From the NCBI RefSeq assembly GCF_026210795.1, contig NC_089433.1, positions 3,373,001 through 3,437,000 of the forward strand: a DNA stretch of 64,000 nucleotides. The letters run 5' to 3'. The translations under genes were made by a program, and so were the position numbers. Positions 9,770 to 36,721 of this stretch are shown piece by piece; the first letter of the stretch is position 1; the number at the start of each line of letters is the position of its first letter. The notes below the pieces were generated by a model that saw only the letters and a list, made by a program, of their open reading frames with translations, was not told the origin of the DNA and did no database searches. Source of the stretch: Rhizophagus irregularis (lineage: Eukaryota; Glomeromycota; Glomeromycetes; Glomerales; Glomeraceae).

Positions 9770-9771
9770 AA

Positions 9772-11867: not shown

Positions 11868-11910
11868 ATATATCATAAAACCCAACTCTGAAAATTTTAT
11901 AAAATATAAG

Positions 11911-14607: not shown

Positions 14608-14617
14608 CTACACTCGG
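14605..14617 (+). promoter_or_regulatory. candidate UGA readthrough signal at the gag-protease junction
   Basis: TGACTACACTCGG begins at the gag stop, and the protease frame continues without shift. The same 13 bases are found at the same place in gypsy-2, although flanking bases differ. UGA followed by CUA is a known leaky stop context in several viral and animal mRNAs. Readthrough here is an inference. Confidence 0.7.
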
Positions 14618-17078: not shown

Positions 17079-17999
17079 ATGAACTCAACAGTTGAACAAC
17101 TTAAGGAAGTTCTTAACATGCCCAATCCTCAGAATTTTAGGATTAAGACCGACTTAGGTCAAAGATGTAAAAGGTGTACAGGAAGATGTCAAAACAACCA
17201 TTATAGCCTGGATAGAGAGTATGGAGAACTAAAAGTTGTGATAAGCAATATGCTAAAGCATAAAGAGCCCATGGAATGCTTTAAACATTCAACAGTAACC
17301 TATCATCCACCACATAATTGTAATAAAGCTAAATGTGAAAGATGTGGATCTTGGGGACATAGTAAGGAGGTATGCAATGATAAGTTATACTATTGGAATA
17401 GGTTGTGCCTATGCAAATGTGATGGAAGGAGATGTAAAAGACGAAGATCAGAAACCCAATTTAAAGGAGGCAATCATTGTTGCACCTGCCAGAAACCTGT
17501 AATATTCTATGAGGCATACAGTAATTATAAAATAGGAAAATTAAGATGCAATGAATGTCATGAGAATAGCGTTAATAACAAAAGACCACCTACACCAGAT
17601 ACTGACGAAGGTAACAAAAAGCCCAAATTTAATATACCAGAACCTGAAGATCCAATGCAAGATATGGAGTTAAACCCACCAAGGATCCAAAATAAAGGAA
17701 AAGAGAAACAAAAATATACTGAAATCAAATGTACGAATTGTAACAGAAAGGAAAGCCCCATTAATTGTATCAATAATTTAGGTATTTGTGACAAATGTGA
17801 TGAGAAAAGAGAATGATTGGAACGAACAGGAAGTACCTCCTGTATAAAGACTTGTACAGTTTGCCGACTACAAACTGATAACTTTGAGTCAAGATCATCA
17901 GGAGCTATAGTATGTGGAGAGGAATGTAATGGAGTGTTAACTATTATGAATATGGTTAACAAGGATAAATCAGGAAAACCCCAATCCCAATTAATTTAA
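17079..17999 (+). pseudogene. gypsy-1 accessory ORF C: cysteine-rich multi-zinc protein with one in-frame TGA
   Basis: The first 245 codons hold a series of cysteine pairs. They include CKRCTGRC near residue 28, a canonical CCHC knuckle CERCGSWGHSKEVC at about 87-100, CCTCQKP with LRCNECHE, and near the end CTNCNRKESPINC and CDKCDE. A TGA at 17814-17816 interrupts the frame, which then continues with CIKTCTVCRLQ and GEECNG to 17999. The pattern implies several zinc-binding units and a nucleic-acid-binding role beyond the Gag knuckle. The TGA may be a mutation (CGA to TGA fits) or a readthrough stop. Gypsy elements usually have nothing here. Function unknown. Confidence 0.6.
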
Positions 18000-18056
18000 G
18001 AGAAATTACAAATTTGGATAGATAAACTTGGATATGATCCAGAAGATGAAGATGAT

Positions 18057-18824
18057 ATGAGCGAAGAACAGGATAAAATCAATAAAATGTCAGGAAAAAT
18101 TCAAAAATACCTTAAGAAAGAATTCAAAGAAAGGATATTTTCTGAATATCCAAAAGAAAGGATTGAAGAAGCTTTAGATGTTATAGTACCACCAGAGATA
18201 ACAAATATGATATCTGAACATATAGAGAATAAAGAATTAACTCAAGTGATACCTATTAGAACCATTAATGATACTATTGAATGGACCGAAGAGATCAGAC
18301 AACCATGGGAATTGAATGGAGAATTCATATGGCCAGAAGAAGAATTATTAGAAAACCCCATTCCTATAATGAATATAATTCAAGAAGTAAATCCCACCGA
18401 TAACAGAATAATTGAACTTCAAAACCATATTGTGAAACTAGAAAATGAAATTGCAATAAAGGACCAAATGAATGAAGGATTAAGGAATCAATTAGAGGAA
18501 ACCCAATATCAACTTAACGAAACAGCGAGAATGTGCAATGAAAATGCAAATATGGTGATGAACGCTCAAGAGTGGATGAAATATTTCAAAAATAAATATG
18601 ACAGAAGGAATAAATGGGTAAATGAATTAAAAAAGAAAGGTAATATTTTGTTAACAAAATATGTCAACAAAAATAATGATTTGAAAGAGAGGATAGAGGA
18701 ATTAGAGCAAGAAATAAATTTTGGAAACGTGTTATTTAATCAGATAATAGATCTTAATATGACAATTAGTTCAGACATAGATATAGATCCTTCTATGGAA
18801 AACATGGAACTCTTAAGATATTAA
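18057..18824 (+). CDS. gypsy-1 accessory ORF D: coiled-coil protein (255 aa)
   Basis: An intact ORF. Residues 1-120 are mixed helical and acidic with a Pro-rich patch. Residues 120-155 (IIELQNHIVKLENEIAIKDQ) and 195-235 (LKERIEELEQEI) have Leu/Ile heptads typical of coiled coils. It starts 57 bases after ORF C and ends 56 bases before the kinase gene, so it is part of the same gene row. An AACCCAA word recurs in the spacer that follows. It resembles no standard retroelement protein. A structural or assembly role is possible but unproven. Confidence 0.6.
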   Translation: MSEEQDKINKMSGKIQKYLKKEFKERIFSEYPKERIEEALDVIVPPEITNMISEHIENKELTQVIPIRTINDTIEWTEEIRQPWELNGEFIWPEEELLENPIPIMNIIQEVNPTDNRIIELQNHIVKLENEIAIKDQMNEGLRNQLEETQYQLNETARMCNENANMVMNAQEWMKYFKNKYDRRNKWVNELKKKGNILLTKYVNKNNDLKERIEELEQEINFGNVLFNQIIDLNMTISSDIDIDPSMENMELLRY

Positions 18825-19263
18825 TTGAAATTTTTATAAATAAAGCCCAATTTTTATAAACCCAAACTCAAATTTTCAAAATGAAACAAAAATATGTAAA
18901 AATAAAAGATGAATAGCATTTTATTTCGTATACTAAAAACCCAAATTTTGAGTTCAAATATTTTACAGATAATGAAGCGATGTTACTCAAGTTAGGAGAA
19001 AGGACCAAAGAAATTTTATTAAAACGAAATAATAGAAAAACCCAACCCATTTTAATAATAATTGATGGAGTAGATGGCGTAGGAAAAACTACTATAGTAG
19101 AAAATATAATTAGAAAAATTGAAGCCCAGAATCTTAAAATCATTTTTAACACTTTCAAAAGAAGGAGAGGTGATAATAAATTATTTGAGACCCCAACCAT
19201 CAAATATGAATGGATGTTTCGAAAAGAAGTAGTTGAACAAATTAACAAGAGATTAGTAACATA

Positions 19264-19289
19264 CACAGGCAATCTCGATAAATCGGATC
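19264..19289 (+). repeat. left terminal inverted repeat of the pogo-like element
   Basis: 26 bp starting CACAGGCAATCTCGATAAAT, a perfect inverted match to 21307-21332. Confidence 0.95.
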
Positions 19290-19478
19290 AGTTGGTTCCA
19301 GTAAAAATATCCGATATATCAAGACATCCGATATATCGAAAAAATCTCGCCAAACCGGATTTATATAAAAATATATGAAAAATCCGAAATACCAAGAAAT
19401 CACGTGATTTTTCGTTCAAAATTTTCAAAATTTTATTCAAAAATGAATATAATTTTATTATTATAAAAGAACTATCTG

Positions 19479-21047
19479 TCATACATTAAAATCAAAATAT
19501 TCATTTAGTTTACTTTGCCTTTTTTCATTTATATTATCAAAAAAGATCCTTTTTTTCAATTTAATTAAATTTTTCATTTCTAAATTACCAATTTCTAAAT
19601 CTTTTTGTTGAATATATTTAATTACATTTTCAATGCTATTTAACGCAACTATTGTAGAGATTTCATCTTGCTCCTCTTCCTCTTCAATTTCCCTTTCATT
19701 TGTTCCCTTTACAACGTCAACAATTTCTTGTAATGATAATTCCTCTTCAGCAGATGCTCTATTATCAATATTAATATAGTCATTCACAGCTAAAGGATCT
19801 ACGAATCCTAACTCATCAATTAATGATTGTAATTCATGTCCAATATTATCTTCTTCATAATCGGAATTGTCTGAACATTCAGAATCTTCCATATTATTAT
19901 TGGGAAGGATTCCAGCTTTAGCCCAACTGTTAAGAATTGTTTTTTTAGATACTTTTTTCCAGGCATCAGCAATTAAATTGATTGAATCAAAAATATCAAT
20001 TGGGGGTGGAATGGGGTCTCCCTCTTCATAAAAAACATAAGCTTGAATACGATTTTGACATAGCAATTTGCGATATTGTGCTTTTAAACTATAAATAATG
20101 CCTTGATCTAATGGTTGAAGAAATGATGTTGTATTTGGTGGTAAAAAATGAACCTTAACATTTGAAAGACTATTGATGTTCTCAGATTCATGACATCTAG
20201 CATTATCTATTAGTAAAATAATATGCCGATTTTCTCTAAGCATTTTGGAATTTAATCTTTCAAGATAATGTTTGAAAATACTTCTTTGCATCCAAGCTTT
20301 AGAGTTCCAATAATACCAAACAGGGAGAGATCTTTTTTCAATTCCCTTTAATGCACGTGGTGTTTCATATTTATGAATAAAAACTAAAGGCAATCTTTCA
20401 TCACCAGAAGCATTACAAGTTGCCAAAATACTAACACGTTCTTTAGGACGTTTTTTACCAAGTACAGGATCATGTGCTATTGTTTTGGATGGTTCTAAAC
20501 GCCAAAAAAGAGCAGTTTCATCACAGTTCCAGATATCTTTTAGTTCATATGCTTGAAGAATTTCTCGTAATTCAGCTCTCATTTGTGGAAGTTCATCAAT
20601 AGGAGCACTGCCAGCTTCTCCTTTTTTTTTATATGTATGCAAATTATTTCTCTGTTTAAAGTTGCTTAACCATCCTGCAGATGCTGAAAAGTTGGTGATA
20701 TCAAGTAAGTTAGCACACTCTACTGCTTTTTGTTGGATAATAGGCCCATTTATAGTTAAATTTCTTGAAATTTGTTGATCAACCCAAATGCTTATTACTT
20801 CTTCTAGTTGTGGATAAACACTAGATTTTTCACGAAAATTATTTGCATTTGGTAAAGTGGTATCAATGGAAAGCCAATGTTCTGATCTTTTTAAAATATC
20901 AGAAACTGTGCTAGTGGAAATTCCATATTGTGCTGCTAATTGAACACCACTAAGTTTTTGATCTCTTTGTTTTTTGCAGAGTTCTTTCTTTTGAGCTAAT
21001 GTTAAAGATTTCTTCTTTTTATTATTCGTATCTTTGTTTTCTCTCAT
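19479..21047 (-). CDS. pogo/Tigger transposase (522 aa)
   Basis: Would cut and paste the element at TA sites. The N-terminus has a psq/CENP-B type helix-turn-helix (LTLAQKKELCKKQRDQK, QLAAQYGISTSTVSDILKR), then a second CENP-B/Tc5-like DNA-binding domain (ECANLL, SAGWLSNFKQRN). The DDE_1 catalytic domain follows, with IWNCDETALFW, ILLIDNARCHES and FLQPLDQGI supplying the acidic triad. An acidic tail closes the protein. I chose the ATG at 21047 because it directly precedes the conserved helix-turn-helix; the open frame extends 36 codons further upstream. It has no internal stops, so it may be functional. It lies antisense to the host gypsy element. Confidence 0.93.
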   Translation of the reverse strand: MRENKDTNNKKKKSLTLAQKKELCKKQRDQKLSGVQLAAQYGISTSTVSDILKRSEHWLSIDTTLPNANNFREKSSVYPQLEEVISIWVDQQISRNLTINGPIIQQKAVECANLLDITNFSASAGWLSNFKQRNNLHTYKKKGEAGSAPIDELPQMRAELREILQAYELKDIWNCDETALFWRLEPSKTIAHDPVLGKKRPKERVSILATCNASGDERLPLVFIHKYETPRALKGIEKRSLPVWYYWNSKAWMQRSIFKHYLERLNSKMLRENRHIILLIDNARCHESENINSLSNVKVHFLPPNTTSFLQPLDQGIIYSLKAQYRKLLCQNRIQAYVFYEEGDPIPPPIDIFDSINLIADAWKKVSKKTILNSWAKAGILPNNNMEDSECSDNSDYEEDNIGHELQSLIDELGFVDPLAVNDYINIDNRASAEEELSLQEIVDVVKGTNEREIEEEEEQDEISTIVALNSIENVIKYIQQKDLEIGNLEMKNLIKLKKRIFFDNINEKRQSKLNEYFDFNV

Positions 21048-21306
21048 GCTAAAGTATATTTTGAAAAAAAAAACAGTGAGAAAAATTGTTTGCCTAATTA
21101 ATAAATGATTGACATAATTATTTCGGACTCCAAAAAAATTAATACGACATATCAAGATTTTTTAACTATAGTTGATCTAGAATAAAATCCGATTTACGAA
21201 ATATCGAGATTTTACTAATAAAGTCCGATATATCAAGACTGTTTTAATATAGATGATTTGGTTCCAGAAGAAAAATCCGAAATAGTGCCAAATCCGGTTT
21301 ATCGAG

Positions 21307-21332
21307 GATCCGATTTATCGAGATTGCCTGTG
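21307..21332 (-). repeat. right terminal inverted repeat of the pogo-like element
   Basis: 26 bp ending GAGATTGCCTGTG, followed by the TA target duplicate and then the second half of the kinase gene. Confidence 0.95.
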
Positions 21333-21735
21333 TATACTGATGAAGATATAATTATAGTAGATAAATCCCCATACTGCGAATATTTTTATCAAAAGACAAG
21401 TAGTTTTGATAGAGGAATAATAAGACCTTTTGGAAATTTTAAAATGGAACAAGAAATTTTCAAATACAAAAATATAATTGATAATGCAGCAGTTATATTT
21501 TTAGAAAATAACGCATGTTGGAAAAATTACATAGGAAGAGAAACTAAAAAGAGTAATGGAGGATATAAAGCATCATATAATACACTCAAAGAAAACGAAT
21601 ATATGGAAATGGTTAAGATGTTCAAACAAAATCAAACAATATATGACAACAAAAAGAAATATAAAGCAGTAAAAATCCAGAACGATAACAAAAGTTGGAA
21701 AATTGTCTATAATGAAATTTTAAAAATAATAAAAA

Positions 21736-22893
21736 ATGGAAACTGACGAATATAATAAAATTGTTAAAAATATTCATGAAAACCCCAAATTTGAATTAAA
21801 AGAAGCCCAACTCTATAGAATAAAAGAAGATAAATTACTTAAAGTAATACAAAAACATGAAGTTGAAGGACTATTATATATGATGCACGATCATGAATTA
21901 TCAGCACATTTTGGAATAAAAGCAATACAAGATAAAATACGAGGAAAATATTGGTGGAATAAAATGATGAAAGATATAGAAAATTATGTTAAATCATGCG
22001 ATAGATGTCAAAGAAGAAATAAACCCCAAGGGAAGAATGAATTAAGCCCAATTAGCGTTAAAACCCCATTTTATCAGATAGGAATTGATTTTGTAGGACC
22101 ATTACCTGCTACTAAAAAGAGAAATCGATATATAATTGTAGCAATGGATTACTTTACTAAATGGCCAGAAGCAAGAGCGACTAAAAGAGATACAGCTGAA
22201 GAAGTAGTTAAATTTCTTTATGAGGATATTATATGTAGACATGGTTGTCCACGAAAAATAATTAGTGATAGAGGCAAACATTTTGACAATAAGATGGTAG
22301 AATTATTAACTAAAAAGTTTGAAATAAAACATAATTTATCAACAAGTTATCATCCCCAAACTAATGGATTAGTAGAAAGATTTAATAAGACGTTATGCGA
22401 ATCATTAGCTAAATTGCAAGAAGATAAACAATGGGACGATAAAATACCATCAGTATTATTTGCATATAGAAATAAAACCCACTCTTCTACAAAAACCAAA
22501 CCATTTTATTTAGTATATGGACGAAAAGCTAATTTCATTGAAGAAGAAACCCAAACCACAGAGAGACTAAATGAGATTATAGAAGGACTACCTTTTCAAA
22601 GAAATATAGCAAAAGAAGAAATTTTAAGATCTCAGGTAAAACAGAAAGAATATCATGATAGCAGAAGTAAAAGGAAAGAAGAATTTAAAATAGGAGACGA
22701 AGTATTAAGATATAACGCAGCACAGCAAAATTCTAAATCAAATAAATTAGACGATAAATGGTCAGGACTATACTTAATACATGAAATATTATTAAATGGA
22801 TCTTATAAATTAAAAGAGTTAGATGGAAAAATATTGAGAAACCCTACGAATGGAGAATTATTGAAGAGATATTTCACGAGAGAACTTAGATAA
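21736..22893 (+). CDS. int: gypsy-1 integrase (385 aa)
   Basis: Would insert the cDNA into the genome. The N-terminal HHCC zinc domain is HDHELSAHFG...CDRCQ. The core carries the DDE residues in GIDFVGPL, IISDRGKHF and the NGLVERFNKTL glutamate. The C-terminal DKWSGLYLIHEIL is a GPY/F-type module. The ATG overlaps the last 11 bases of the kinase frame, so it is probably made by reinitiation or a frameshift. The frame is intact although RT upstream is broken. There is no clear chromodomain after the GPY/F module. Confidence 0.93.
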   Translation: METDEYNKIVKNIHENPKFELKEAQLYRIKEDKLLKVIQKHEVEGLLYMMHDHELSAHFGIKAIQDKIRGKYWWNKMMKDIENYVKSCDRCQRRNKPQGKNELSPISVKTPFYQIGIDFVGPLPATKKRNRYIIVAMDYFTKWPEARATKRDTAEEVVKFLYEDIICRHGCPRKIISDRGKHFDNKMVELLTKKFEIKHNLSTSYHPQTNGLVERFNKTLCESLAKLQEDKQWDDKIPSVLFAYRNKTHSSTKTKPFYLVYGRKANFIEEETQTTERLNEIIEGLPFQRNIAKEEILRSQVKQKEYHDSRSKRKEEFKIGDEVLRYNAAQQNSKSNKLDDKWSGLYLIHEILLNGSYKLKELDGKILRNPTNGELLKRYFTRELR

Positions 22894-22997
22894 ATATCTT
22901 AATTAATTTACAAAATAAAAAGTAAAAGCACAATTGTTAAAGTAAAATATAAAATTTTATTGAAATTTTAAAAATCCCAAGAAGAAAAAGAAGAGAA

Positions 22998-23699
22998 TTA
23001 TAATAGTTTCTTTAAAGCGAGGTTTTCTTCTGAAAAAAAAAAAAAAAAAAAAAAAAAAATTTATTATTAAATGATAATTTTTAGGAATTTAATCTTAAAT
23101 ATTAAAAATAAGATAATATACCTTTGAGACTGAGAAGCAGCCGACCAAGATTTCGATTAAAAGAACGAAGCTCTGAAATGGTATCTTTGAAATTATCTTG
23201 CTCTTGTTCAAGAGCATTAACCTTTTCCTCCATTTCCTCAATTTGATCTTGTAACTTCCAACCGGAAGTCAAATAATGAACATTCTTTTCAAAGAGAGAT
23301 TCGTTTCGCTCCTTCATTTTATCCAATTTGCGTTGGAGAGATTCTGTTTGTTCTGTTAGAAGGAAAGAAAAAAGAGAAGAAGAAATTCATACCATTATTA
23401 GTTAAAAAACTAAGTGAATAAAGTCGATAGTACAAAGGAGTTCTACAGGAGAGTGCATTCAAGACTAGCCCTAGAAGTATAGAAACCCCGTCTACAGGTC
23501 AAAAGATCAACCATTCAAGAACCGGAACTTAAGTTTAAAAACCCCGTCTACAGTTAAACCCCATTCAAGAGACATCCTAAGGACCTTGCGTATGATACCC
23601 ACCCTTAAGTCGAGCTATTTCAGTTTTGCGAGAAGCCTTGAGAGCTTTATAACGAAGTTGAGATTTCTTATTTGAAGAAACTGAGCGGCGAGAAGTCAT
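22998..23699 (-). CDS. antisense three-exon coiled-coil (bZIP-like) gene inside gypsy-1
   Basis: Proposed exons on the minus strand are 23699-23603, 23352-23122 and 23029-22998 (97, 231 and 32 nt; 119 codons). Both introns are phase 1 with G|GT donors (GTGGGT, GTATAT) and strong pyrimidine-rich acceptors ending CTAACAG and TTTTCAG. Joined, the frame runs from ATG to TAA without a stop. The basic start (SNKKSQLRYKALKASRK) is followed by heptads of Leu (ARLKEQTESLQRKL, QIEEMEEKVNALEQEQ) and a leucine-rich end (LLLSLKEENLALKKLL). A basic region before a zipper recalls bZIP proteins, but the basic motif is not canonical. It lies between integrase and the 3' LTR. HTLV-1 HBZ is a known antisense bZIP in a similar position. 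Function here is unknown. Confidence 0.65.
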
Positions 23700-24176
23700 G
23701 ACGAAAGATTATATATATTTTAAAGGGTAAAGGAAAATGTTTTATAACAATGAATGAATGAGGAAAGAAAAGAAAAGGAAAAAGTGAGGTCTTATATAGA
23801 GAAAAAGACGCGACTTGAAGAATGCGTTAAAATTAAACAAAACAAACTTATCACGAAAAGATTTGATGAAAACCCCACGTGGAAATTTATAGAAAAAGAA
23901 ATTTATTTTTAGAACAAAGAACTATACGTTAATTAATTTAAGGAGTTAAAAACAAATTAATTTGGTGAAACATTGATGTCGCGATTTGTTAAAATTAGAG
24001 ATTTATTTTTAGTAATACACGGAAAATTAAGGGGTAGAATAACGGATTGGAGTTAGTATGAAATAAATGTCGCGATTTACTAAAATTAGTAGAAGGAATA
24101 ATTAATTAATAGGACGCGTTTTATTTTGATCCTGTAATACAGATTTTAATTTGGAAATTTATGAGGACACAAATTT
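23700..24176. other. gypsy-1 stretch between the antisense gene and the polypurine tract
   Basis: No gene is seen. It would contain the promoter and 5' leader of the antisense gene. Two similar TAAAATTAG/GTCGCGATTT-containing segments occur near 23970-24000 and 24065-24095. Confidence 0.5.
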
Positions 24177-24191
24177 TAAGGGGGAGGAAAG
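24177..24191 (+). other. polypurine tract of gypsy-1
   Basis: AAGGGGGAGGAAAG ends two bases before the 3' LTR TG. This is the standard plus-strand primer position. Confidence 0.85.
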
Positions 24192-24193
24192 TT

Positions 24194-24714
24194 TGTAGTG
24201 CCATAATTCCAGAATTAACTTTGATTTAAATAATAGAGTATTTCGGAATTATAGGGATCGTCTATATTTTGTGTAACATATATTAATAGTCCGAAGTAAT
24301 TTGGATCGGAAATGAAGATCATCCTAATAGTAATAATGATGTAATAAGTTACAATTAATTTATTATTATTTACGTTGATCGAAGGATCAACATGTAAATT
24401 ATTATATAAACCCCAACTTTTTGACTTAGTATTAGCAGTTCCTTTTCTTTGGAAGTTCCTTTCCGTTTCTTTTAGTTCCTTTTAAATTCTTTTAATTCTT
24501 TTAAATAAAAACTATCATTTTAATTATTATAATTATTTTATAATGTTCTGACGAAATTTTATGATTATATTATTTTACATTTAATAAATAACTGTGTTAT
24601 AATGACATATTTTTACATAATAAAGAATAAACCTTTTATTAAATTATAAATTTTATGACTTTATGAGAGAGACGAAATTCTTGTGGTGACAGAGTGGCAG
24701 AAGCTGTCGTTGCA
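24194..24714 (+). repeat. 3' LTR of gypsy-1
   Basis: 521 bp, matching the 5' LTR with about seven C/T or A/G differences. ATAT follows as the target duplicate. Confidence 0.95.
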
Positions 24715-25050
24715 ATATGATTGATATTTTAACTGTTCGTTCTTGATATTTATGTGTTATGCTTGATATTTGGTCCGTTTGTAAAAACATCAGGCATGAA
24801 CAGATAAAACATCAAGCACAAACAGCTAAAATATCAAGCATGTGATAGATAAGCATCAAGCATGATGGATAGATGAAAATATCAAGTATATGACAGATGA
24901 ATATCAAGCATGCATGAACAAATAAAATATCAAGCATGGACAGATGAACATCAAACTTAAAACAGGTAAAATGTCAGGCACAGTGTAACAATTTGTCAAT
25001 CCATGCTTGATTTTTCATGGCTGATAGTTTAGTCCAACTCGGCTAACCAT

Positions 25051-25582: not shown

Positions 25583-25636
25583 ATGATATGTGAAAGATGT
25601 GGAAAGTATTTACATTTTGAATGGTGTAAATCATGC

Positions 25637-26738
25637 TGAGATCCCCCTATTCCCTCTGTCATCAATTTACAGAGTTGCCACATCGAACGGGCATTCCTAT
25701 GGTCGAACGAACGAATAAACGAACGAATGAACAATTAAACGAACAAGCAAATAATCAACGACATAATTAACAAACAACATAATCAACGAACAACATACAA
25801 CAACATTCTTGGTTCATGACATAAATAGCGTTAGTAATATAAAACGTCGAACGATATAAAATAAAATTTAACTTCTCTAAATTTTCCCCAAATTATATCC
25901 ACTTTTACCTTTAATTTCAAACTTCGATAGCTCTCGCTACGAATTATTACTTTCCAAAAGTGTATATTTAATTCATCTTAAAATTTCCATTTATTCAATT
26001 AAAATTAATTAAGCAAACATTAATTAAAGTTTAGGGCGAACCTATTACCTTTAATTAACATTAAACTTTACTAACAAATAATTAAAAAAATAAAACTTAT
26101 ATTTTTATTGAGTTCTGTGGATGAGAACTAAGGAATTACCTTGAATTCCGCTCTCTATATATACAATTTTTATGCTACTTTCTATTCTATCTATATACTA
26201 TCTTTTATGTTCTCTTTACATATTATCTTTGAACTATCTTTCTAATATACTATCTATATTTTAAATACGCTATCTTTTAATATGCTATCTTTTAATATGC
26301 TATCTTTTTATATATGTTCTTTTTAATATATTATCTTTTACGTTCCATCTTTATACTATCTTTTTATATTATCTTTTACATTATTTTGTGTTCTTTAATC
26401 TTTCTGACATTATTTTATATGTTCTTTTAATTCGCTTTATGTGTTTTGCTTATAATCTATCTTTTGTGGCTTATAATTATTCTTTCTTATCGTTCTTATT
26501 GTTAAAGATTGCTAAGCCGCAATTGATCGACTCTATTTATCCTATTGGTTCCTTGTCAATCATTCAATAAATATTACATCATGTAGATCATTACTCTTCC
26601 TAAATGTTTATCCTTTTCGGCTAATTATTTATCCATCTACGCCAATCCACGATTAATTTGTTCGTTCTTAATATTTAATAATTACATTTGGTGGTTGAAT
26701 TTTATCATCTTTTCGTGCTTGATATTCGACCGTTTACA
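25637..26738 (-). repeat. 3' LTR of gypsy-2
   Basis: 1102 bp; on the plus strand TGAGATCCCC...CCGTTTACA. It contains stretches of ACGAACGAATAAACGAACG and a run of CTATCTTTTAATATG-like repeats. Confidence 0.95.
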
Positions 26739-26754
26739 TTATCCCCCTCTTCGC
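26739..26754 (-). other. polypurine tract of gypsy-2
   Basis: On the minus strand GCGAAGAGGGGGATAA abuts the 3' LTR start TGTAAACGG. Confidence 0.8.
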
Positions 26755-26814
26755 TATTTGTGACCTCACAAATAACTTTAATAGAATCGAACTCGTGTCT
26801 TATCCATAATAATT

Positions 26815-28041
26815 TTAATCGAATCGAACTCGGGTCTTATCGAATACCTCTTTTCCTTTAATTACTATTTTTGGTATAAATCCCCTTCGATCATAAAATT
26901 TCTTTAACCATTCTCCATTTTGTGGTGTTTTTAGTATTCTTCCGTCTAATTCTTTGAGTTTATACGCTCCATTTCCAAATTCTTCGTGAATTAAATATGG
27001 TCCTTTCCATTTGTTCTGCAATTTTCCCGACCATTGTTTCTCTCTCCATGCTTCATATAATAATACTTTTTCTCCTATTTCAAATTTAGGTTTTCTAATT
27101 CCCCTTTTGTCGTGTTGTTGTTTTTGTTTCTCTTGAGCTTCTTTCACATTTTCTTTTATTTTCCTTCTTATTACCGGTAGTTCTTCAATTAATATTTTTA
27201 CTCTGTCAGCTAATGTTATTTTATTTTCGTCTTTATCCAATGGTAGTTTTGCTCTCCTTCCGTATGTCGCATAAAAAGGTTTAATCTTTGTTGATGATTG
27301 CTTCTTTGTTCTATATGCAAATAATACAGATGGTATATGTTTATCCCAATTTTCTTCTCCTAATTTGGCTAATCCTTCGCATAAAGTTTTATTGAATCTT
27401 TCGACCAAACCATTTGTTTGTGGCCTATATGGTGTACTTAATCTATGATTTATTCCACACCTTTCTACCAATTCTTCCATCATTCTATTGTTAAAGTGAG
27501 TCCCTCTATCACTAATTATTTTCTTTGGACACCCATGTCTACAAATTATATCCCTCCAAATAAATTCTACTACCTCTTTCGCTGTAGCTTCTTTTAGTGG
27601 TGCGGCCTCGGGCCATTTTGTAAAATAATCCATTGCTACTACAATATACTTATTTCCCTTTTCTGTCTCTTTTAATGGTCCAACTATATCTATTCCAATC
27701 ATCTCGAATGGTTCATTTATCTTTATCGGCATTAATTCGTTCTTTCCTCTTGGTTTTCCTCTCATTTGACAATTCCAACACGTTTTTACATATTCTTCTA
27801 CATCTTCTTTCATATTTTTCCACCAATAATTTTCTTTTATTCTATCTAATGTCGCTTCTACTCCAAAATGTCCTGATAATTCGTTATCATGCATCATGTA
27901 CATCAATCCTTCGTATTCATAATCCCTGATTACTCTAAATTTGTTTTGTCCTTTTACTCTATATAGAATTCCTTCTTTCAATTCATATTTATTCTCCTTT
28001 TCGATATTGTCAATTATTCTCTTGTAATTATTTTCTTCCAT
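26815..28041 (-). CDS. int: gypsy-2 integrase (408 aa)
   Basis: The N-terminal HHCC zinc domain is HDNELSGHFG...CWNCQ. DDE core residues lie in GIDIVGPL, IISDRGTHF and NGLVERFNKTL. The C-terminal GPY/F module is NKWKGPYLIHEEFGNGAYKL. The ORF begins 50 bases after the kinase stop, so it needs reinitiation or a subgenomic message. It closely matches the gypsy-1 integrase throughout. The end lies 76 bases before the 3' LTR. No stop or frameshift is seen, so it is probably functional. Confidence 0.95.
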   Translation of the reverse strand: MEENNYKRIIDNIEKENKYELKEGILYRVKGQNKFRVIRDYEYEGLMYMMHDNELSGHFGVEATLDRIKENYWWKNMKEDVEEYVKTCWNCQMRGKPRGKNELMPIKINEPFEMIGIDIVGPLKETEKGNKYIVVAMDYFTKWPEAAPLKEATAKEVVEFIWRDIICRHGCPKKIISDRGTHFNNRMMEELVERCGINHRLSTPYRPQTNGLVERFNKTLCEGLAKLGEENWDKHIPSVLFAYRTKKQSSTKIKPFYATYGRRAKLPLDKDENKITLADRVKILIEELPVIRRKIKENVKEAQEKQKQQHDKRGIRKPKFEIGEKVLLYEAWREKQWSGKLQNKWKGPYLIHEEFGNGAYKLKELDGRILKTPQNGEWLKKFYDRRGFIPKIVIKGKEVFDKTRVRFD

Positions 28042-28090
28042 AATACCTCTTTAATTGATTTCGCTTCTAAATTTGTTATGTTCTGTATTT

Positions 28091-30172
28091 TTAGTTCTGT
28101 GCTCTTCTCCATTTCTCCACCTCTTTAAATACTTTTCTCCAACTACTATTGTCATTTTTAACTTTTACTCGACTGTATCTTTTAGTATCTTTGTACACGC
28201 CCTGATTTTCTTCAAACATTCTAACCATGTCCAAATATTCATCCTTCTTTAATGTTGGATATGATGATTTTTCCGTTTTCTTTGTTTCTCTTCCAATGTA
28301 ATTTTTCCAACATACGTCGCCATCTTTTTCTAAAAATATCACTATTGATTTATCTATTGTTTCTTTCAATCTGAATATTTCTTTTTCCATCTCATGATTT
28401 CCATGTGGAGTAATTAATCCTCTGTCAAAGCTTTTCGTCTTTTGATAATAATATTCACAATATGGTGATTTGTCTAAAATTATTATATCTGTATCTTCGT
28501 CATATTCTAACATTCTCCTGTTTATTTGTTCTACTACTTCTTTTCTAAATTTCCATTCTGTCTCCATTTTTGATTCATAAAATTCATCTTTGTCTTTTCT
28601 TCTTCTTTTATAAGTATTGAATCTTACTTTTAATCCTTGTTTTTCCCATTCTTTAATTAAATTTTGTACTATACTTGTTTTTCCTAATCCATCTACTCCA
28701 TCGATTATTACTATTTCTGGTTGGTCTTCTACTATCTTTAATAACCTACTTAACGCGTCAGCGTTCGTGTTTTCTTTTCCTGATCTATGTATTACTTCAA
28801 AATTATATTGTTGTAATTCCATTACCCATCTTGCTCTTTTTCCTTTCGGTATCTTTGCATTCATTAATCCTTTTAATGCACTGTGATCTGTTATTACTTT
28901 AAATTTTCTATCGATCAAATACTTATGAAAATGTTGAATTCCCCAAACTATTCCTAAACATTCCAATTCGGTTATCGGATAATTTTCTTCTGCTGGTAAT
29001 AAACTTCTACTTGCGTATGCTATTACTACTTCTTTTCCCTTTTCATCTTTTTGACTTAATACTGCACCTAATCCTTTTCCTGATGCATCTGTTATTAATA
29101 AAAATTCTTTCTTCCAATCTGGATGTCGCAATATTGGATATTGTATTAACTTTTCTTTCAATTTTTCAAACGCTTCTTGTTGTTCTCTTCCCCAAATGAA
29201 AGGTATCCCCTTCTTTCTCAAATCACTTATTGGTCTTGCTATCTTTGAAAAATTCTTTACAAATTTTCTGTAATATGAACAAAGTCCTAAAAATGATCTT
29301 ACTTCTTTCACTGTTGTTGGTGCCTTCATTTCTTTTATCTTTTCTATCTTTTTATCGTCTGGCCTTAATCCATCATTTCCTACTATATGTCCTAAAAATT
29401 CTATATTTCTTTCCAAAAATCTACATTTCTTTAATTTTATTATCAAATTATTCTCCCGTAACTTCTTTAATACTTTTTCCACATGTTCCATATGATCTTT
29501 TAAACTTTCCGAATATATCATAATATCATCGATATATACTACCACAAAATCGTTTATGTATTCTTCCAATATTTCATCCATTAATCTTTGAAATGTTGCT
29601 GGTGCATTCGTTAAACCGAACGGCATTACATTATACTCAAATAATCCTTTCGAATATACAAATGCTGTCTTTTCTTTGTCTTCTTCTTTCATTTCTACTT
29701 GATTAAATCCTGCCGCTAGATCTATACTTGAAAACCATTTTGCTTTTCTATATTTGTCCAATAATTCATCCATTCTTGGTAAAGGAAAACTATCCATTAT
29801 AGTTATCTTATTTAACTTCCTGTAATCAATGCAAAATCTATATTTTCCTGTTTTCTTTCCTGCTAATGTAACAGGTGAACTCCATGGACTTTTTGATTTC
29901 CTTATCCTTCCCTGTCTTAACAATTTATCTACTTCTTCGCTTATAAATTTTGCCTTTTCATCTGTTTCTTTATATCTTCTTTGCTTTATTGGTTCTACCC
30001 CATCTTTTATTTTTATCTCATGCTGCGCTGCTTTTGTTCTTCCTTCTATTTCCTCATCGTATTCCAAAATATCTTGGTATTCTAATAGTAATTTTACCAT
30101 ATTTTCCCAAATTGGTTCTTCTACCTCCCCTATACTTAGTTTTTGCATAAATTTTTCACTTGGTTCGAGCAT
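28091..30172 (-). CDS. pol: gypsy-2 reverse transcriptase-RNase H fused to a thymidylate-kinase-like domain (693 aa)
   Basis: RT occupies about residues 80-260 (SPWSSPVTLAGKKTG, SSIDLAAGFNQVEM with D151, VVYIDDIMI with the YIDD at 213-216). RNase H occupies about 355-475 (LITDASGKGLGA, TELECLGI, ITDHSALKGL, NADALSR). With no stop, the frame continues into a P-loop kinase domain from about 481. It has IDGVDGLGKTS (P-loop 492-500), FNTYKRRR, DKSPYCEYYYQ (567-577, spaced as DR...AYQ in thymidylate kinase) and NYIGRETKK. This third domain is not part of any gypsy Pol I know. It probably phosphorylates nucleotides for cDNA synthesis. A conserved block upstream (GAGTCTTGGC) is shared with gypsy-1, where a TAATG overlap starts RT. 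Here the first ATG is 36 bases past the protease stop. Confidence 0.92.
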   Translation of the reverse strand: MLEPSEKFMQKLSIGEVEEPIWENMVKLLLEYQDILEYDEEIEGRTKAAQHEIKIKDGVEPIKQRRYKETDEKAKFISEEVDKLLRQGRIRKSKSPWSSPVTLAGKKTGKYRFCIDYRKLNKITIMDSFPLPRMDELLDKYRKAKWFSSIDLAAGFNQVEMKEEDKEKTAFVYSKGLFEYNVMPFGLTNAPATFQRLMDEILEEYINDFVVVYIDDIMIYSESLKDHMEHVEKVLKKLRENNLIIKLKKCRFLERNIEFLGHIVGNDGLRPDDKKIEKIKEMKAPTTVKEVRSFLGLCSYYRKFVKNFSKIARPISDLRKKGIPFIWGREQQEAFEKLKEKLIQYPILRHPDWKKEFLLITDASGKGLGAVLSQKDEKGKEVVIAYASRSLLPAEENYPITELECLGIVWGIQHFHKYLIDRKFKVITDHSALKGLMNAKIPKGKRARWVMELQQYNFEVIHRSGKENTNADALSRLLKIVEDQPEIVIIDGVDGLGKTSIVQNLIKEWEKQGLKVRFNTYKRRRKDKDEFYESKMETEWKFRKEVVEQINRRMLEYDEDTDIIILDKSPYCEYYYQKTKSFDRGLITPHGNHEMEKEIFRLKETIDKSIVIFLEKDGDVCWKNYIGRETKKTEKSSYPTLKKDEYLDMVRMFEENQGVYKDTKRYSRVKVKNDNSSWRKVFKEVEKWRRAQN

Positions 30173-30207
30173 CTTTTCCGTCTCTCTCTCTTCAGAGCCA
30201 AGACTCT

Positions 30208-30720
30208 CTATTTAAAATTCTGGTGCATTTTGAATACCTCTCCTTCATCATTGCTTTCATATTCTTCATCGTCCTCACTCTCCTCACTTTCATATGCTAC
30301 TTCTCTTTCATATCCTACTGGAATCGTTATTATTTCTCCCTGTTCTTCTATTCTTAAGGTATGATCTTCAAAATTTATTTTTGCATTATACAACTTCCAT
30401 ATGTCATTTCCCAAAATTAGATCCTCCTCTTCTGAATCGATTACTTCAACTTCTTTCAGTATTTCTAATTCATCTTTGTACCTCAAAGTTATATTCGCCT
30501 TTCCTAACGCTGCTATCTTTTGCCCATTTGCTATTGTACATCTAAATTTACTTTTTCCAAATATAGGTATATTCAATCTTCTTCTTAATTTATCTGTTAT
30601 CACGCTTACTGCTGCTCCAGTATCTATTATTACATTCACTAATTGATCTTCAACTTCTAATTCTGTTCTCATTGCTGTAGTTCTCTTTTCTTCGTTTTTC
30701 ATAGTTCCCACCGAGTGTAG
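30208..30720 (-). CDS. pro: gypsy-2 aspartic protease
   Basis: In frame with gag after the UGA. The active site is NVIIDTGAAVSVITDKL, and LILGNDIWKLYNAKI is the second-half signature. An acidic tail (SEESEDDEEYESNDEGE) ends the protein, as in gypsy-1. An internal ATG at 30702 could serve if readthrough is not used. The frame is intact. It would process the gypsy-2 polyprotein. Confidence 0.88.
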   Translation of the reverse strand, partial: LHSVGTMKNEEKRTTAMRTELEVEDQLVNVIIDTGAAVSVITDKLRRRLNIPIFGKSKFRCTIANGQKIAALGKANITLRYKDELEILKEVEVIDSEEEDLILGNDIWKLYNAKINFEDHTLRIEEQGEIITIPVGYEREVAYESEESEDDEEYESNDEGEVFKMHQNFK

Positions 30721-30723
30721 TCA
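30711..30723 (-). promoter_or_regulatory. candidate UGA readthrough signal, gypsy-2
   Basis: On the minus strand TGACTACACTCGG starts at the gag stop, identical to 14605-14617 in gypsy-1 while neighbouring codons differ. The protease frame is continuous. Confidence 0.7.
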
Positions 30724-33700
30724 ATTTCTCTCATTTACACTTCTTGGCTTATATGTTCCTTCCCTTAATTGTTTATGATACTTAGTATTCTCATTTGTTA
30801 ATTGTCCAAATGTTATATTCGCTCTACAATTTTTCACGTCTCCCACAATGTCATAAGGTGGTATTCCATCAGTTAATCTCGGTCCATATTCTCTGGGCTT
30901 TCCTATCCCTGATGGCTTTGTTCTAACCCAATTTCCAAATTCGTCTTGCCGCATTCCAGGGTAAAATGCTTTGCCTTCTTTTGTGAACATTGGTTTATAA
31001 AATCTTCCATCCTTTGTCATGGGTCGACGACCATAATTATAATCTTCTGGTCCTATTGGATTATCCCAATTTTGGCTATCTTTGTGTACATTATTTTGTT
31101 CTGTCCTTTCGGGCGTATATCTTGGTGTTGTTGTTCCACTTGGTATTTCTCTATCATCCATTCTATTTCCCGCTTCTCTTAATTCTTCTTGTAAATTTCC
31201 TTCTTCACCATTATTTTTATATCCCATTATTGGATTCGACCTTCTTGTTTGTCTTCTTGTTTTTACTGCATTATCTTTCGCGTATAATTCATTATGGTAA
31301 TTTAATTCCCTATCTTCATAATCATCGTAATAACCTTGTGTATAATACATTTCACCGTATTGTGGTTCCCCATATTCATATCCATCATAATCATATTCCT
31401 CTTGGTCATCATATTCGTCCATCATATTCACTCCTACATTCCTTCTTTTCTCTGGACACTCCCTTGAATAATGACCAACTCTACCACATGTATAGCATGT
31501 CGGTACCCTTTTTTGGAATGACTGATTTCTTTGAATTGGTTGATTTCTTTGCATTGGTTGGTTTCTCTGCATTGGTTGGTTTCTCTGCATTGGTTGGTTT
31601 CTTTGTGGTAATCGCCTATAACTCTGACTCGCTAAATTTCTTAATCTTTCATTCTCATCTTCTAACATCTTAATTTGTAACTTCGCAAAACTGTCTGCTA
31701 ATTCATCTACACTTACCTCTTTATTATTCCTTACATTCCCTTGAACAATAGGTTCTTGTCTTCTTTGTTCATCATTAATTCCTTTTGGTTGTACTTTATC
31801 TGTTAATGCTTCTAAACCTCTTTCTACGTTTTTTGCTATCTGAAATGTTGCATTTAGATCTGCTGGATTTCCCATTACTACGTCTTTAGTAAAGTCTGGT
31901 TTTAATCCTCTAATAAAAATTCTCTTTTGCTGATTTGCTGCTACTGCTGCATCACCTCCCGCTCTCTTTAACATATATTTAAATCTCGTAAGGTATTGAG
32001 TTACATTCTCGTCTCCCTGTCTAATCTTTTCTAATTGTTCTAGCCATCTATCTTTAATTTCATCACTTGCATACTTTCCAATTATTCTTACTCTTAATCT
32101 TAAATTATGATCTCCATTAACATTCCAATCGACAATATTTACTCCTTCAGTCTTTAACCAATCTGCTGCTCCTCCCATTAATTTCGCTTTTGCTATTCTA
32201 AATCTCTGTGCATCATCATTCCCTAAACCATTCGCTGTAAATGTCTCCTCAAATTTATCTGCCCATTCTTCTGGATCTTCTCCACTGGTACCATAAAATG
32301 CTGGTATTTCTACAATAGCTCCTCTATTTGCGTTTAAATTTCCTATCGCATTAGTATTCGCTTGAACTTCTCCTTGTAATCCTGTCAATGTTACTGGTGG
32401 TAATACTAAATTGTTCCAATCTGCCCCAATATCATGATTATACATAGTATTCATTAATGCTCTTAGATCTGCTCTGAGTTCATCTCTTGATGCTGCCATT
32501 GTTATCTTTGGTTTTATTGGTGGTACTGGTGTTATTGGTATTATAGGTACTTCCTTTGATTTTTTATTTTTCTCTTTACTTTTTGGTTTTTTACTTGAGC
32601 CAATTTCGGGTCCTTTTATATCCTCTTCCATTTCATCTTCATCATCTGTTGGATTTTCTTTTTCAATATCTTTTTCACATTCTATGCAGGTTTCTTTTCC
32701 AATTTCAAATTCTTTCTTTAATCTTTCAATTTCACATCTTCCGCATTCTTTTGTGTTTTCAACTCTCCATTGTAATATTTGTTCATCTAATTCTTCATCT
32801 TCAAGATTCCATATTGTTAAATATTTCTTCATAAATTCATATGTTGTTATTATCTTTGCGGTTACTCCAAATTTTCTTATTCTTTTAATTTCCGTTATTT
32901 CTACATCATATCCCATTCTTTTCAAATCCATTCTAATTATTTCTTCGAATATCTTTGTTGTTCCTGTTTCTTCAACATTATTAGATTCAATAGATTCATC
33001 AGATTCCTCATCTGACATTTCTTCATTTTTACTAATCGGTAAATTTCCTTCTTTCTCATCGTCTGTTTCTGTTATAGTATAGCTTCTTGGTGTATCATCA
33101 CTATCTGTTTCATCTATATTTAATTGTTCAAACCCTCTAATCTTATCATAAACTTTTTCAACTATCTCTTTTCTAATTCCCCAACCATGTTCACGAACTC
33201 TTATGTGCATTGTGTGCAACATTAATCTAATTTTTTGTTTGAACGCTTCTATCTTTTCTGTTGACTCATCTTCTTTTAATTCAGCTTCTTCATATAATAT
33301 ATTTTTGTATCTTCTAATAGTGCTATCCTTACATTCTATAAAATTTGTTATAGCTTCTTTATACCATTCATAAAATTCCCCAAATCTTATATTCACATCC
33401 CAATCTTCCAAAATATAACCATATCTTATTAATTCTTCGTTCCCTATCAATCTGTCCATTGTTTCATCTTCTTTATCATTTTCTATACAATCTCTCACGA
33501 TTACTATTATTATTATCTTTAATCCTTTTTCTCTTAATACTGGTTGTTTCAAGTATCTTATCGATTCGACCATTACATCTAATGCATCTCTAGTCCTTCC
33601 TTTTGTATAATTATTTCTTTCTTCACTATCTATACTTAATAAATTTAATAACGCTCTTATAGTTTCCGCGTTATAACCTTTTATCGTATATTCAAATTTT

Positions 33701-33873
33701 TGTAATATTCTCCAAAATTTCTTAAAAACTTCTGGCGTATCTTTTACTGGATAACATATTTCACATGTTATATTTTCTCCTCTTAATTCACCTATATCTA
33801 CATTTCCAATATTTTCATCATGTCTTAATTTGTGATTTTCGTAATCAACCCTCCAAGTTTCATACCATTCCAT
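30721..33873 (-). CDS. gag: gypsy-2 Gag polyprotein (1050 aa)
   Basis: It has the same plan as gypsy-1 Gag. A long N-terminal extension carries CEICYP and FKKFWRIL, followed by a second cysteine set near residue 395 (CGRCEIERL, ETCIECEKDIE) and a Lys/Pro linker. The capsid region starts near residue 530 (IPAFYGTSGEDPEEWADKF). Then come five tandem RNQPMQ-type hexapeptides, a CCHC knuckle CYTCGRVGHYSREC starting at residue 793, and a Tyr/Asp/Arg-rich tail. It ends at UGA with protease open behind it. The frame has no break over 1050 codons. The role of the extra 500 N-terminal residues is unknown. Confidence 0.93.
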   Translation of the reverse strand: MEWYETWRVDYENHKLRHDENIGNVDIGELRGENITCEICYPVKDTPEVFKKFWRILQKFEYTIKGYNAETIRALLNLLSIDSEERNNYTKGRTRDALDVMVESIRYLKQPVLREKGLKIIIIVIVRDCIENDKEDETMDRLIGNEELIRYGYILEDWDVNIRFGEFYEWYKEAITNFIECKDSTIRRYKNILYEEAELKEDESTEKIEAFKQKIRLMLHTMHIRVREHGWGIRKEIVEKVYDKIRGFEQLNIDETDSDDTPRSYTITETDDEKEGNLPISKNEEMSDEESDESIESNNVEETGTTKIFEEIIRMDLKRMGYDVEITEIKRIRKFGVTAKIITTYEFMKKYLTIWNLEDEELDEQILQWRVENTKECGRCEIERLKKEFEIGKETCIECEKDIEKENPTDDEDEMEEDIKGPEIGSSKKPKSKEKNKKSKEVPIIPITPVPPIKPKITMAASRDELRADLRALMNTMYNHDIGADWNNLVLPPVTLTGLQGEVQANTNAIGNLNANRGAIVEIPAFYGTSGEDPEEWADKFEETFTANGLGNDDAQRFRIAKAKLMGGAADWLKTEGVNIVDWNVNGDHNLRLRVRIIGKYASDEIKDRWLEQLEKIRQGDENVTQYLTRFKYMLKRAGGDAAVAANQQKRIFIRGLKPDFTKDVVMGNPADLNATFQIAKNVERGLEALTDKVQPKGINDEQRRQEPIVQGNVRNNKEVSVDELADSFAKLQIKMLEDENERLRNLASQSYRRLPQRNQPMQRNQPMQRNQPMQRNQPIQRNQSFQKRVPTCYTCGRVGHYSRECPEKRRNVGVNMMDEYDDQEEYDYDGYEYGEPQYGEMYYTQGYYDDYEDRELNYHNELYAKDNAVKTRRQTRRSNPIMGYKNNGEEGNLQEELREAGNRMDDREIPSGTTTPRYTPERTEQNNVHKDSQNWDNPIGPEDYNYGRRPMTKDGRFYKPMFTKEGKAFYPGMRQDEFGNWVRTKPSGIGKPREYGPRLTDGIPPYDIVGDVKNCRANITFGQLTNENTKYHKQLREGTYKPRSVNERN

Positions 33874-35442
33874 CGTCGTAATCGTTCATCCAGAATCTTA
33901 ACTAAAATCTCACATCCTTTTATATATTTATACTTCACTCTTATCATTTCTATTTTCAATCTTCTAAACATTCTTTTATCTTTAAATAGATTGCTTCTTT
34001 CAATCTTTAGATTCCATCTTTCAGTTTTATGTATTCGCTACGCCATATTTTACTATTAATTCTTACTGCGCCTCAAAATTTCAAAAATTATTCTAAGTCC
34101 ACGATCTCCTCAGGCTGCGGAGGTTTTTACTGCGCCATAAAATTTATCTTTTATCACCGATATCCATAATTTCACATGTCACATTCTAAAATTTATCTCC
34201 TATCACCGTGATTCATAATTTCACTTATCACATCTTTTTTGTCACCAAGATCCATAATTTCACATATCACAAACTCCAAAATTTTCATAACTTTTAAAGT
34301 TCGCGAATTTCCAATCTTTCTTATCGTCCACATAAATCCTTCTTACTATATATTCTATATTATATAAATTAATCTATGATACACAAAATGTCATTCTTTT
34401 CAAATAAATGTCCTCCTTTTCAAATAAATGTTCTTTTTCAAATAAATATTCCTTTTCAAATAAATGTTCTTCTTTTAAATAAATGTCCTTCTTTTCGGAT
34501 TTTACTCTATTATTAAATACTGCACGTAATATTCATTATACGGCTCGTTAATGTGTAAATATCCTTCTATTTTATCTTCTTTTAACGGAACATTATAATG
34601 AGAGCGTGAACTAGGACACTACACCAGGAACCTTCATCTGAAATGTAGCCTAGAACCTGTAACAATACAACGTATCCATTTTTCCTCCTTCGTTGGCCGA
34701 CTTGTCTCTTAACGGGTGAATCTAACCTTCCAAAATCCAGTTTCAAAAGTCATCAGCTATCCATAAAACTCATCTAAACCAACTTATCTTTCCTCAAATT
34801 GGTGGACCTATACTGGGCTTATCTCTATCTTTTTCCCATTGGGTAAAAGCATGATAGTTTACAGGTTTGTCCCATTTTATCCATTCAATGTTTCTCGATA
34901 GTAGGTGTCTTTACAATTTTCATTCCCCGTCCCCAAAGCAATTCGCGCGTTATTGAGCTGGGTATTCAGATTTGACGTAACCCATACGTTATAATCTTTA
35001 ATGTCGAAGAATAAAAATTTTCCAATCTCGAGCATTTATCCAAAATTCAAACTCAGAGGTAACCCATACCACACAGATGAACCCCAGATAATACATTGGT
35101 GTTCTCCCATTATTAATCTTTATTCCAAAATTCATCTTTCACTTCCACATCTCCTTATGAAATTTTCCAGGTACTTTATTCCCGAAAGAAATATTCTTGT
35201 GCTTTCTATCGATTAAATGATTACTTGCACAACTTCAAACTCCAATCTTTCACCTTTTCAAGTTTTTTAACTCAATTAAATCCTTATTGATTTATTGGTT
35301 CCTTTTGAACTCGTTAAAACCTGAAATCTAAAAATAAATTCTAAAATAAAATATTGATTAATAATACCTATCAGTGACTTACTAACGAAATTAAATTTTC
35401 ATATTCATTATAATAATAATCATGTGATGATGATCATTTCCT
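33874..35442 (-). other. gypsy-2 leader between PBS and gag
   Basis: 1.57 kb without a convincing gene on either strand. It includes near-repeats of TTCAAATAAATGTTC(T/C) at about 34395-34500 and of TTTATC(T/A)CC(T/G)ATCACCG with CATAATTTCAC at about 34140-34270. 34570-35000 is less AT-rich than its surroundings and could hold packaging or translation signals. Confidence 0.55.
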
Positions 35443-35444
35443 TT

Positions 35445-35460
35445 CTCGGAGCATGCACCA
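35445..35460 (-). other. primer binding site of gypsy-2
   Basis: On the minus strand TGGTGCATGCTCCGAG starts two bases after the 5' LTR. It differs by one base from the first 16 of the gypsy-1 site, so both elements appear to prime from the same tRNA. Confidence 0.75.
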
Positions 35461-35462
35461 TA

Positions 35463-36564
35463 TGAGATCCCCCTATTCCCTCTGTCATCAATTTACAGAG
35501 TTGCCACATCGAACGGGCATTCCCATGGTTGAACGAACGAATAAACGAATGAACGAACAATTAAACGAACAAGCAAATAATCAATGACATAATTAACAAA
35601 CAACATAATCAACGAACAACATACAACAACATTCTTGGTTCATGACATAAATAGCGTTAGTAATATAAAACGTCGAACGATATAAAATAAAATTTAACTT
35701 CTCTAAATTTTCCCCAAATTATATCCACTTTTACCTTTAATTTCAAACTTCGATAGCTCTCGCTACGAATTATTACTTTCCAAAAGTGTATATTTAATTC
35801 ATCTTAAAATTTCCATTTATTCAATTAAAATTAATTAAGCAAACATTAATTAAAGTTTAGGGCGAACCTATTACCTTTAATTAACATTAAACTTTACTAA
35901 CAAATAATTAAAAAAATAAAACTTATATTTTTATTGAGTTCTGTGGATGAGAACTAAGGAATTACCTTGAATTCCGCTCTCTATATATACAATTTTTATG
36001 CTACTTTCTATTCTATCTATATACTATCTTTTATGTTCTCTTTACATATTATCTTTGAACTATCTTTCTAATATACTATCTATATTTTAAATACGCTATC
36101 TTTTAATATGCTATCTTTTAATATGCTATCTTTTTATATATGTTCTTTTTAATATATTATCTTTTACGTTCCATCTTTATACTATCTTTTTATATTATCT
36201 TTTACATTATTTTGTGTTCTTTAATCTTTCTGACATTATTTTATATGTTCTTTTAATTCGCTTTATGTGTTTTGCTTATAATCTATCTTTTGTGGCTTAT
36301 AATTATTCTTTCTTATCGTTCTTATTGTTAAAGATTGCTAAGCCGCAATTGATCGACTCTATTTATCCTATTGGTTCCTTGTCAATCATTCAATAAATAT
36401 TACATCATGTAGATCATTACTCTTCCTAAATGTTTATCCTTTTCGGCTAATTATTTATCCATCTACGCCAATCCACGATTAATTTGTTCGTTCTTAATAT
36501 TTAATAATTACATTTGGTGGTTGAATTTTATCATCTTTTCATGCTTGATATTTGACCGTTTACA
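35463..36564 (-). repeat. 5' LTR of gypsy-2
   Basis: 1102 bp, near-identical to 25637-26738. ATGC follows outside as the target duplicate. Confidence 0.95.
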
Positions 36565-36721
36565 ATGCCATATAAATAATCTAAAAAATAATTTTACAAA
36601 TTGGACCAGTGGAAATGAAAAAATTGATAATTTAATTCAGGAAATGCAATTAAAAATATTTTATCCCTCTGATATAATTGAATGGATGCCATATGATCGA
36701 AGGGGACAAAATTATCATATA

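Follow-up and report, generated by a model that had tools for sequence, protein, structure and literature searches.

A P-loop kinase-like domain of the thymidylate/deoxynucleoside kinase group in pol of Ty3/gypsy retrotransposons of Rhizophagus irregularis

The window analysed here, a 64,000-nucleotide stretch of contig NC_089433.1 of Rhizophagus irregularis (Glomeraceae), contains at 25637-36564 a Ty3/gypsy retrotransposon, read on the minus strand, whose pol frame continues past reverse transcriptase (RT) and RNase H into a P-loop kinase-like domain of about 210 residues (28094..28729); all coordinates are positions in the window. The domain recurs in five element families under purifying selection, and profile matches and alignments point to the group formed by thymidylate kinases (TMKs) and deoxynucleoside kinases (dNKs). 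The explanation we favour, judging it somewhat likelier to be right than wrong, is that a gypsy clade of the Glomeraceae captured a kinase of this group and retains it as a functional enzyme, one that supports the supply of deoxynucleoside triphosphates (dNTPs).

The open reading frame (ORF) in question (28091..30211, minus strand, as are all features of this element) comprises 706 codons from stop to stop and 693 from its first ATG; it runs without interruption from RT (RVT_1, residues 119-277, 29381..29857; Pfam E-value 1.2e-44), which carries the motif YIDD, through RNase H (RT_RNaseH, PF17917, residues 365-469, 28805..29119; 3.1e-37) into the kinase-like domain, just as the original prediction had described it. 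The motifs quoted there, IDGVDGLGKTS, DKSPYCEYYYQ and NYIGRETKK, are all present in this frame: the P-loop GVDGLGKTS lies at 28673..28699; DKSPYCEYYYQ lies at 28442..28474 and aligns with DRHDLSTQAYQ of TMK and DRTPLSSYFF of dNK; and the lid-like NYIGRETKK, whose R and E are invariant in the set of 35 aligned relatives of the window domain (A1), lies at 28277..28303. The prediction had further placed the kinase in a slot between RNase H and integrase, which holds by gene order only: the integrase (26815..28050) is an ORF of its own in another frame, with its first ATG at 28041, about 50 nucleotides past the kinase stop, so that the kinase terminates the RT-RNase H ORF.

The prediction would have failed had the domain matched no nucleotide kinase family significantly, and it withstands this test: the profile search returns phrog_761 ('thymidylate kinase') over nearly the full length of the domain (residues 11-212, E 4.8e-14), and all 35 members of A1 match this model as well. 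On its scale, four bacterial or archaeal TMKs reach 116-162 bits, a dNK of phage SP-15 reaches 127 and the dNK of the host 66; three element kinases reach 49.6-53.8 bits, below the true TMKs and dNKs, and of the E. coli controls gmk yields no match, adk 16.3 bits and cmk 29.4, the last confined to the P-loop. Pfam Thymidylate_kin (PF02223) matches 30 of the 35 A1 members at E ≤0.01 (best 7.4e-8) and Pfam dNK (PF01712) matches 7 (best 1.6e-4), the latter model being absent from the 21 families listed at E ≤1 for the window domain. By hhalign, a 16-sequence kinase profile (five of its sequences being relatives of the NUDIX type described below) aligns with an eight-sequence TMK profile at a probability of 96.9% over 90 columns, and with a two-sequence dNK profile at 95.0% over 186 columns, which include the DKS region; the controls, each a single sequence, give 28% (adk), 46% (gmk) and 82% (cmk) over 23-26 P-loop columns, and single TMKs give 73.6% (E. 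coli, 31 columns), 87.9% (another, 36) and 92.6% (B. subtilis, 161). With TMKs the domain also shares the P-loop, in which the consensus GxDGxGK[TS] is found, a DxS motif and the basic residues of the lid-like segment. On these comparisons the TMK/dNK group is the best place for the domain, though it is not canonical as either enzyme, and the interpretation given in the prediction is partly supported.

The domain is widespread and mostly open in its own genome. A search of the 146.7-Mb assembly (32 contigs) with the 217-residue domain reports 151 matches, some being pieces of one copy. When the listed rows are restricted to an identity of 94% or more and 215 or more aligned residues (a count that leaves out partial rows and more distant families), 56 remain, and in 53 of these the domain has no stop; its presence in the frame is therefore not due to chance. 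No member of A1 departs from the P-loop K, the DKSPY or the lid-like RE, and all 14 key positions, with T or S allowed at position 23, are kept in 30 of 33 distinct own-genome copies (34 rows, two of which, the window element and L002, are one copy); the exceptions are L014, which is degenerate, L047, with a change from D to N, and L048, a half match. The ratio of nonsynonymous to synonymous substitution (dN/dS, NG86) is 0.02-0.20 for the kinase in 16 of 16 pairs, comparable to the 0.01-0.16 of RT and the 0.02-0.31 of the integrase (15 pairs); the same sequences recur across pairs, and dS is above 1 in some of them. Nonsynonymous changes fall below a neutral draw from the pair's own substitution spectrum in all 6 pairs so tested (P 7.7e-10 to 7.9e-4); constraint on the kinase is weaker than on RT in family D and between C3 and C2. 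Purifying selection has kept the kinase domain intact as a component of a group of gypsy families, five of them in all.

These families are A to E of a grouping of our own, which also contains F, G and H, without the kinase. Copies of A, B and C with an open frame have the kinase fused to RT-RNase H; in D an RT-RNase H of 493 residues is followed by a separate kinase-integrase ORF; and in E, known from L047 and from a second element of the window, the kinase region follows accessory ORFs and has its own ATG, both copies being damaged. Environmental proteins such as P0015 and P0020 begin at the same place as the kinase ORF of family E. The kinase thus occupies one slot with a changing partner, as an enzyme would be more apt to do than a spacer. 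Two observations disfavour a link from kinase to integrase by splicing or frameshifting: the inspected copies of A, B and C share a conserved ATG of the integrase's own, and the extra 229 nucleotides that most D copies have ahead of the kinase, after RNase H, encode a small ORF and lack intron ends.

The kinase also moves between families. DNA identity between A and B is 87-92% in four windows inside the kinase and about 58-78% in RT, RNase H and integrase; correspondingly, the RT and integrase trees place B with C2 (99/99 and 97/99) and the kinase tree places it with A and L013 (98/98), a conflict from which it follows that the kinase cassette was exchanged between two families. In a 25-row tree of RT and RNase H, the 13 kinase bearers are set apart by a branch (support 63/92, present in 60% of bootstrap trees), within a clade that includes F (100/99); the 12 rows without kinase were picked by hand, the kinase counting as absent when tblastn with that of family A gave nothing at 1e-4 in the fetched stretch. 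The simplest reading would be one capture, with F representing either a lineage outside it or a loss.

Several small ORFs adjoin the slot. Besides that of the D copies, family B (L010, L011, L012) has a further ORF of about 115 residues between kinase and integrase. In C and F (L017, L018, L020, L034) a small ORF of about 50 residues precedes the integrase and overlaps its start, an arrangement that suggests termination-reinitiation; by eye, the small ORF of F corresponds to that found after the kinase in C.

A profile search yields 112 proteins, of which the named ones are from R. irregularis, R. clarus and Glomus cerebriforme, all Glomeraceae, and the rest are environmental, several bearing the automatic name thymidylate kinase. 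The closest relatives seen outside elements are metagenomic NUDIX-kinase fusion proteins (P0086, P0099, P0102, P0108, P0113-P0119), whose N-terminal NUDIX domain has no counterpart in the elements; over 93% of the element kinase domain, P0086 shows 46% identity. Nine of these 11 match Thymidylate_kin (best 1.4e-5) and 8 match dNK at ≤0.1 (best 1.6e-5); their clusters hold up to 71 member sequences each. When the 35 residues that precede the kinase are compared between elements (25 of 27 linkers, those long enough) and the NUDIX type (11 of 11), the hhalign score is 16.5, above the maximum of 13.4 among 100 shuffled comparisons (mean 8.4), at a probability of only 6%; this is suggestive at best of an element linker derived from a NUDIX-kinase protein. 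Among the best candidates scored in the own genome with P0102, no NUDIX-kinase gene is seen, all 106 matches starting at residue 151 or later, in or just before the kinase part. Searches for a viral or prokaryotic source gave no confirmed homologue: those with P0086, A1 and A3 in IMG/VR gave 3, 81 and 39 pattern-matching stretches, and with A3 in GTDB genomes 83, with none confirmed in either, and phage tblastn with the window domain and P0102 as queries gave no match.

Nor is a recent capture of a host gene likely, the host TMK and dNK both being different sequences from the element kinase: the TMK-like gene is matched by PF02223 in its C-terminal part and has a P-loop exon that reads GCDKAGKST (by eye), and the dNK gene lies at G000:C28:1224011-1224604. 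A further host sequence (L029, G000:C24:3288271-3288729) combines an HMG-box-like region (by eye) with a TMK-like stretch whose P-loop, GCEDTNTT, is degenerate.

In the explanation that we favour, a Ty3/gypsy clade of the Glomeraceae would have captured a kinase gene of the TMK/dNK group, most simply once, between RNase H and integrase. Where it is fused to RT-RNase H, the kinase would be expected to be packaged with RT; it would there phosphorylate a deoxynucleotide or deoxynucleoside, most simply deoxythymidine monophosphate (dTMP) to the diphosphate, and a local supply of dNTPs, perhaps of deoxythymidine triphosphate (dTTP), would support reverse transcription; the original prediction supposes that this might serve the element in non-dividing hyphae or spores. 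With 43.6% A and 25.8% T in the sense strand of the window element, first-strand cDNA draws on dTTP more than on any other precursor. A more ambitious version holds that the domain is, across the clade, a kinase of deoxynucleosides or their monophosphates, taken once from a gene of the NUDIX-kinase type and later exchanged as a cassette, which provides dTTP in the particle for copying unusually A-rich RNA, and so constitutes a second, independent solution beside the dUTPase of lentiviruses; all of this together we regard as possible, and hold only tentatively.

A number of results weigh against this explanation. The window protein alone matches Pfam Thymidylate_kin at 4.8e-4 with 19-20 bits, below the curated cut-off of 27; in its relatives other P-loop models of Pfam follow closely on the 7.4e-8 of Thymidylate_kin (KTI12 8.3e-7, AAA_28 1.8e-6, NB-ARC 2.6e-6), and in NCBIfam dTMP kinase (4.9e-8) does no better than ftsY (4.0e-8), the number of members matched by guanylate kinase models is much the same, and every cut-off lies far above the score of the window protein. 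Profile searches of PDB have FtsY at the top (5.5e-6; 1.8e-5), over the P-loop and its neighbourhood, the best TMKs following at 0.13 and 0.0028. By hhalign, cmk (81.8%, P-loop only) ranks above E. coli Tmk (73.6%), so single sequences alone do not separate them. Classical TMKs carry a DR motif; at the aligned position the domain has DKS, invariant in A1. The host already has TMK-like and dNK genes of its own. The integrase tree requires two changes of the kinase label, a single change sufficing in only 4% of bootstrap trees. Family F, with an RT-RNase H of 497 residues, an integrase of 408 and several copies with open frames, has no kinase, which is therefore not indispensable; and as the A content of the RT, RNase H and integrase sense strands (24 copies) is 42-45% in A-E, 48-49% in F, 37-38% in G and 29-33% in H, the most A-rich family lacks the kinase, and A-richness follows the clade and not the kinase. 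As an explanation of the kinase, A-richness is weakened accordingly.

Of the other explanations, the one that deserves most weight, doubtful as we hold it to be, is that the domain is an enzyme of the nucleotide kinase group with another substrate or purpose, be it deoxynucleoside salvage, phosphorylation of ribonucleotides or polynucleotides, or a counter to depletion of dNTPs by the host. The hhalign alignment covers more columns of the dNK profile than of the TMK profile (186 against 90), DKSPY resembles the DRTPL of the host dNK, and Pfam dNK does find matches both in A1 and among the NUDIX-kinase proteins; Thymidylate_kin, however, matches more members of both sets (30 against 7 of 35; 9 against 8 of 11), in A1 at a better E-value, and nothing observed points to polynucleotides. 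A P-loop ATPase that would assist the integrase in target choice or activation, as MuB, IstB or TnsC do, nucleotides not being its substrates, is improbable: the kinase does adjoin the integrase, the two forming one protein in family D, and Pfam gives several AAA-type matches of E 1e-3 to 1e-2, with IstB weak at 0.13; but these matches are confined to the N-terminal half, while nearly the whole domain is covered both by phrog_761 and in the alignment with dNK, the Pfam scan contains no full-length match to a family of the MuB/IstB/TnsC type (IstB_IS21 and the other AAA models being partial), and DKSPY and the lid-like RE fit the motifs of nucleotide kinases.

A domain derived from a kinase that now has a structural or binding role without catalysis would agree with the distance of the sequence from canonical TMK and dNK and with DKS in the place of DR, but residues of the catalytic type are among the invariant columns and the changing fusion partners count against a fixed spacer; we assign it a small probability. 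That the gene is a passenger without function is very unlikely: family F manages without it, but where it occurs it is under purifying selection, in five families that cluster on the trees, and the host TMK and dNK are different sequences.

Retroelements rely on the dNTPs of their host, a dependence to which dUTPase is the best known of the answers that elements encode. Carriers of dUTPase among long terminal repeat (LTR) retroelements comprise, according to the portions of the sources available (PMC2864245, PMC5408684, PMC4531489), non-primate lentiviruses, fungal elements of Postia, Phanerochaete and Tuber, and the bdelloid Juno, Vesta and TelKA; they have likewise captured an enzyme of thymidine nucleotide metabolism in or beside pol, at varying positions. 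For the slot between RNase H and integrase, the precedent of dUTPase on which the original prediction drew is retroviral and in print (PMC5408684, as far as available). The element kinase differs from these in its enzyme class, being P-loop kinase-like, and in keeping to one slot, RNase H to integrase, in A-E; no dUTPase model of Pfam matches the five window proteins scanned at E ≤1. The statement that no gypsy family with such a domain had been described agrees with searches of the open-access literature, in which no description of a retrotransposon-borne thymidylate, nucleotide or deoxynucleoside kinase was found; in the available parts of their main texts, two papers on transposable elements of R. 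irregularis (PMC11075540, PMC8647823), and PMC8778642, do not contain 'thymid'. A conserved and selected pol kinase in five families would show that elements can carry a dNTP-producing step, and with this system one could ask directly whether retrotransposition is limited by dNTP supply in a fungus that is coenocytic and an obligate symbiont. The kinase is also a marker by which the exchange of cassettes between element families can be tracked.

The element itself is intact in outline, as predicted, with the order protease, RT, RNase H and integrase of Ty3/gypsy. It is bounded by a 5' LTR (35463..36564) and a 3' LTR (25637..26738), each of 1102 bp, 99.365% identical and ending in TG...CA, and flanked by the 4-bp target site duplication ATGC (25633..25636 on the left, 36565..36568 on the right). 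Read from the sequence, a putative primer binding site region, TATGGTGCATGCTCCGAG, lies just inside the 5' LTR (35445..35462), and a polypurine-rich tract, GCGAAGAGGGGGATAA, directly ahead of the 3' LTR (26739..26754). The gag ORF (30721..33885), with Retrotrans_gag and a CCHC knuckle, and the aspartic protease ORF (30208..30720), both from the ORF list and Pfam, share a frame and are separated by a UGA (30721..30723) followed by CUACA. This single UGA with CUACA splits gag from protease in 13 of the 14 copies inspected, the exception, L013, being degenerate; it is likely to be a signal for stop-codon readthrough conserved across families A-E. At the junction of protease and RT, a nucleotide block around GTCTTGG...GAGACGRTAAAGA is conserved in differing reading frames (by eye; about 30170-30211 in the window; also L010, L016, L022 and L023), and is possibly an RNA signal.

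The second element of the window, of family E, lies on the plus strand at 9248-24719, with LTR pieces of 527 bp that are 98.5% identical and accessory ORFs at 17064-17813 and 18000-18821; a pogo/Tc5-like DDE_1 transposon (19261-21335), whose inverted repeats measure 29 bp, splits its kinase region. Elsewhere in the window, 52001-56000 contains a stretch of about 11% G+C, and 40775-42028 and 44731-45900 encode BACK-TLDc proteins, the first with a weak BTB match as well. They are of the kind expanded in R. irregularis, an expansion of BTB proteins being described in the available parts of PMC11075540 and PMC8647823.

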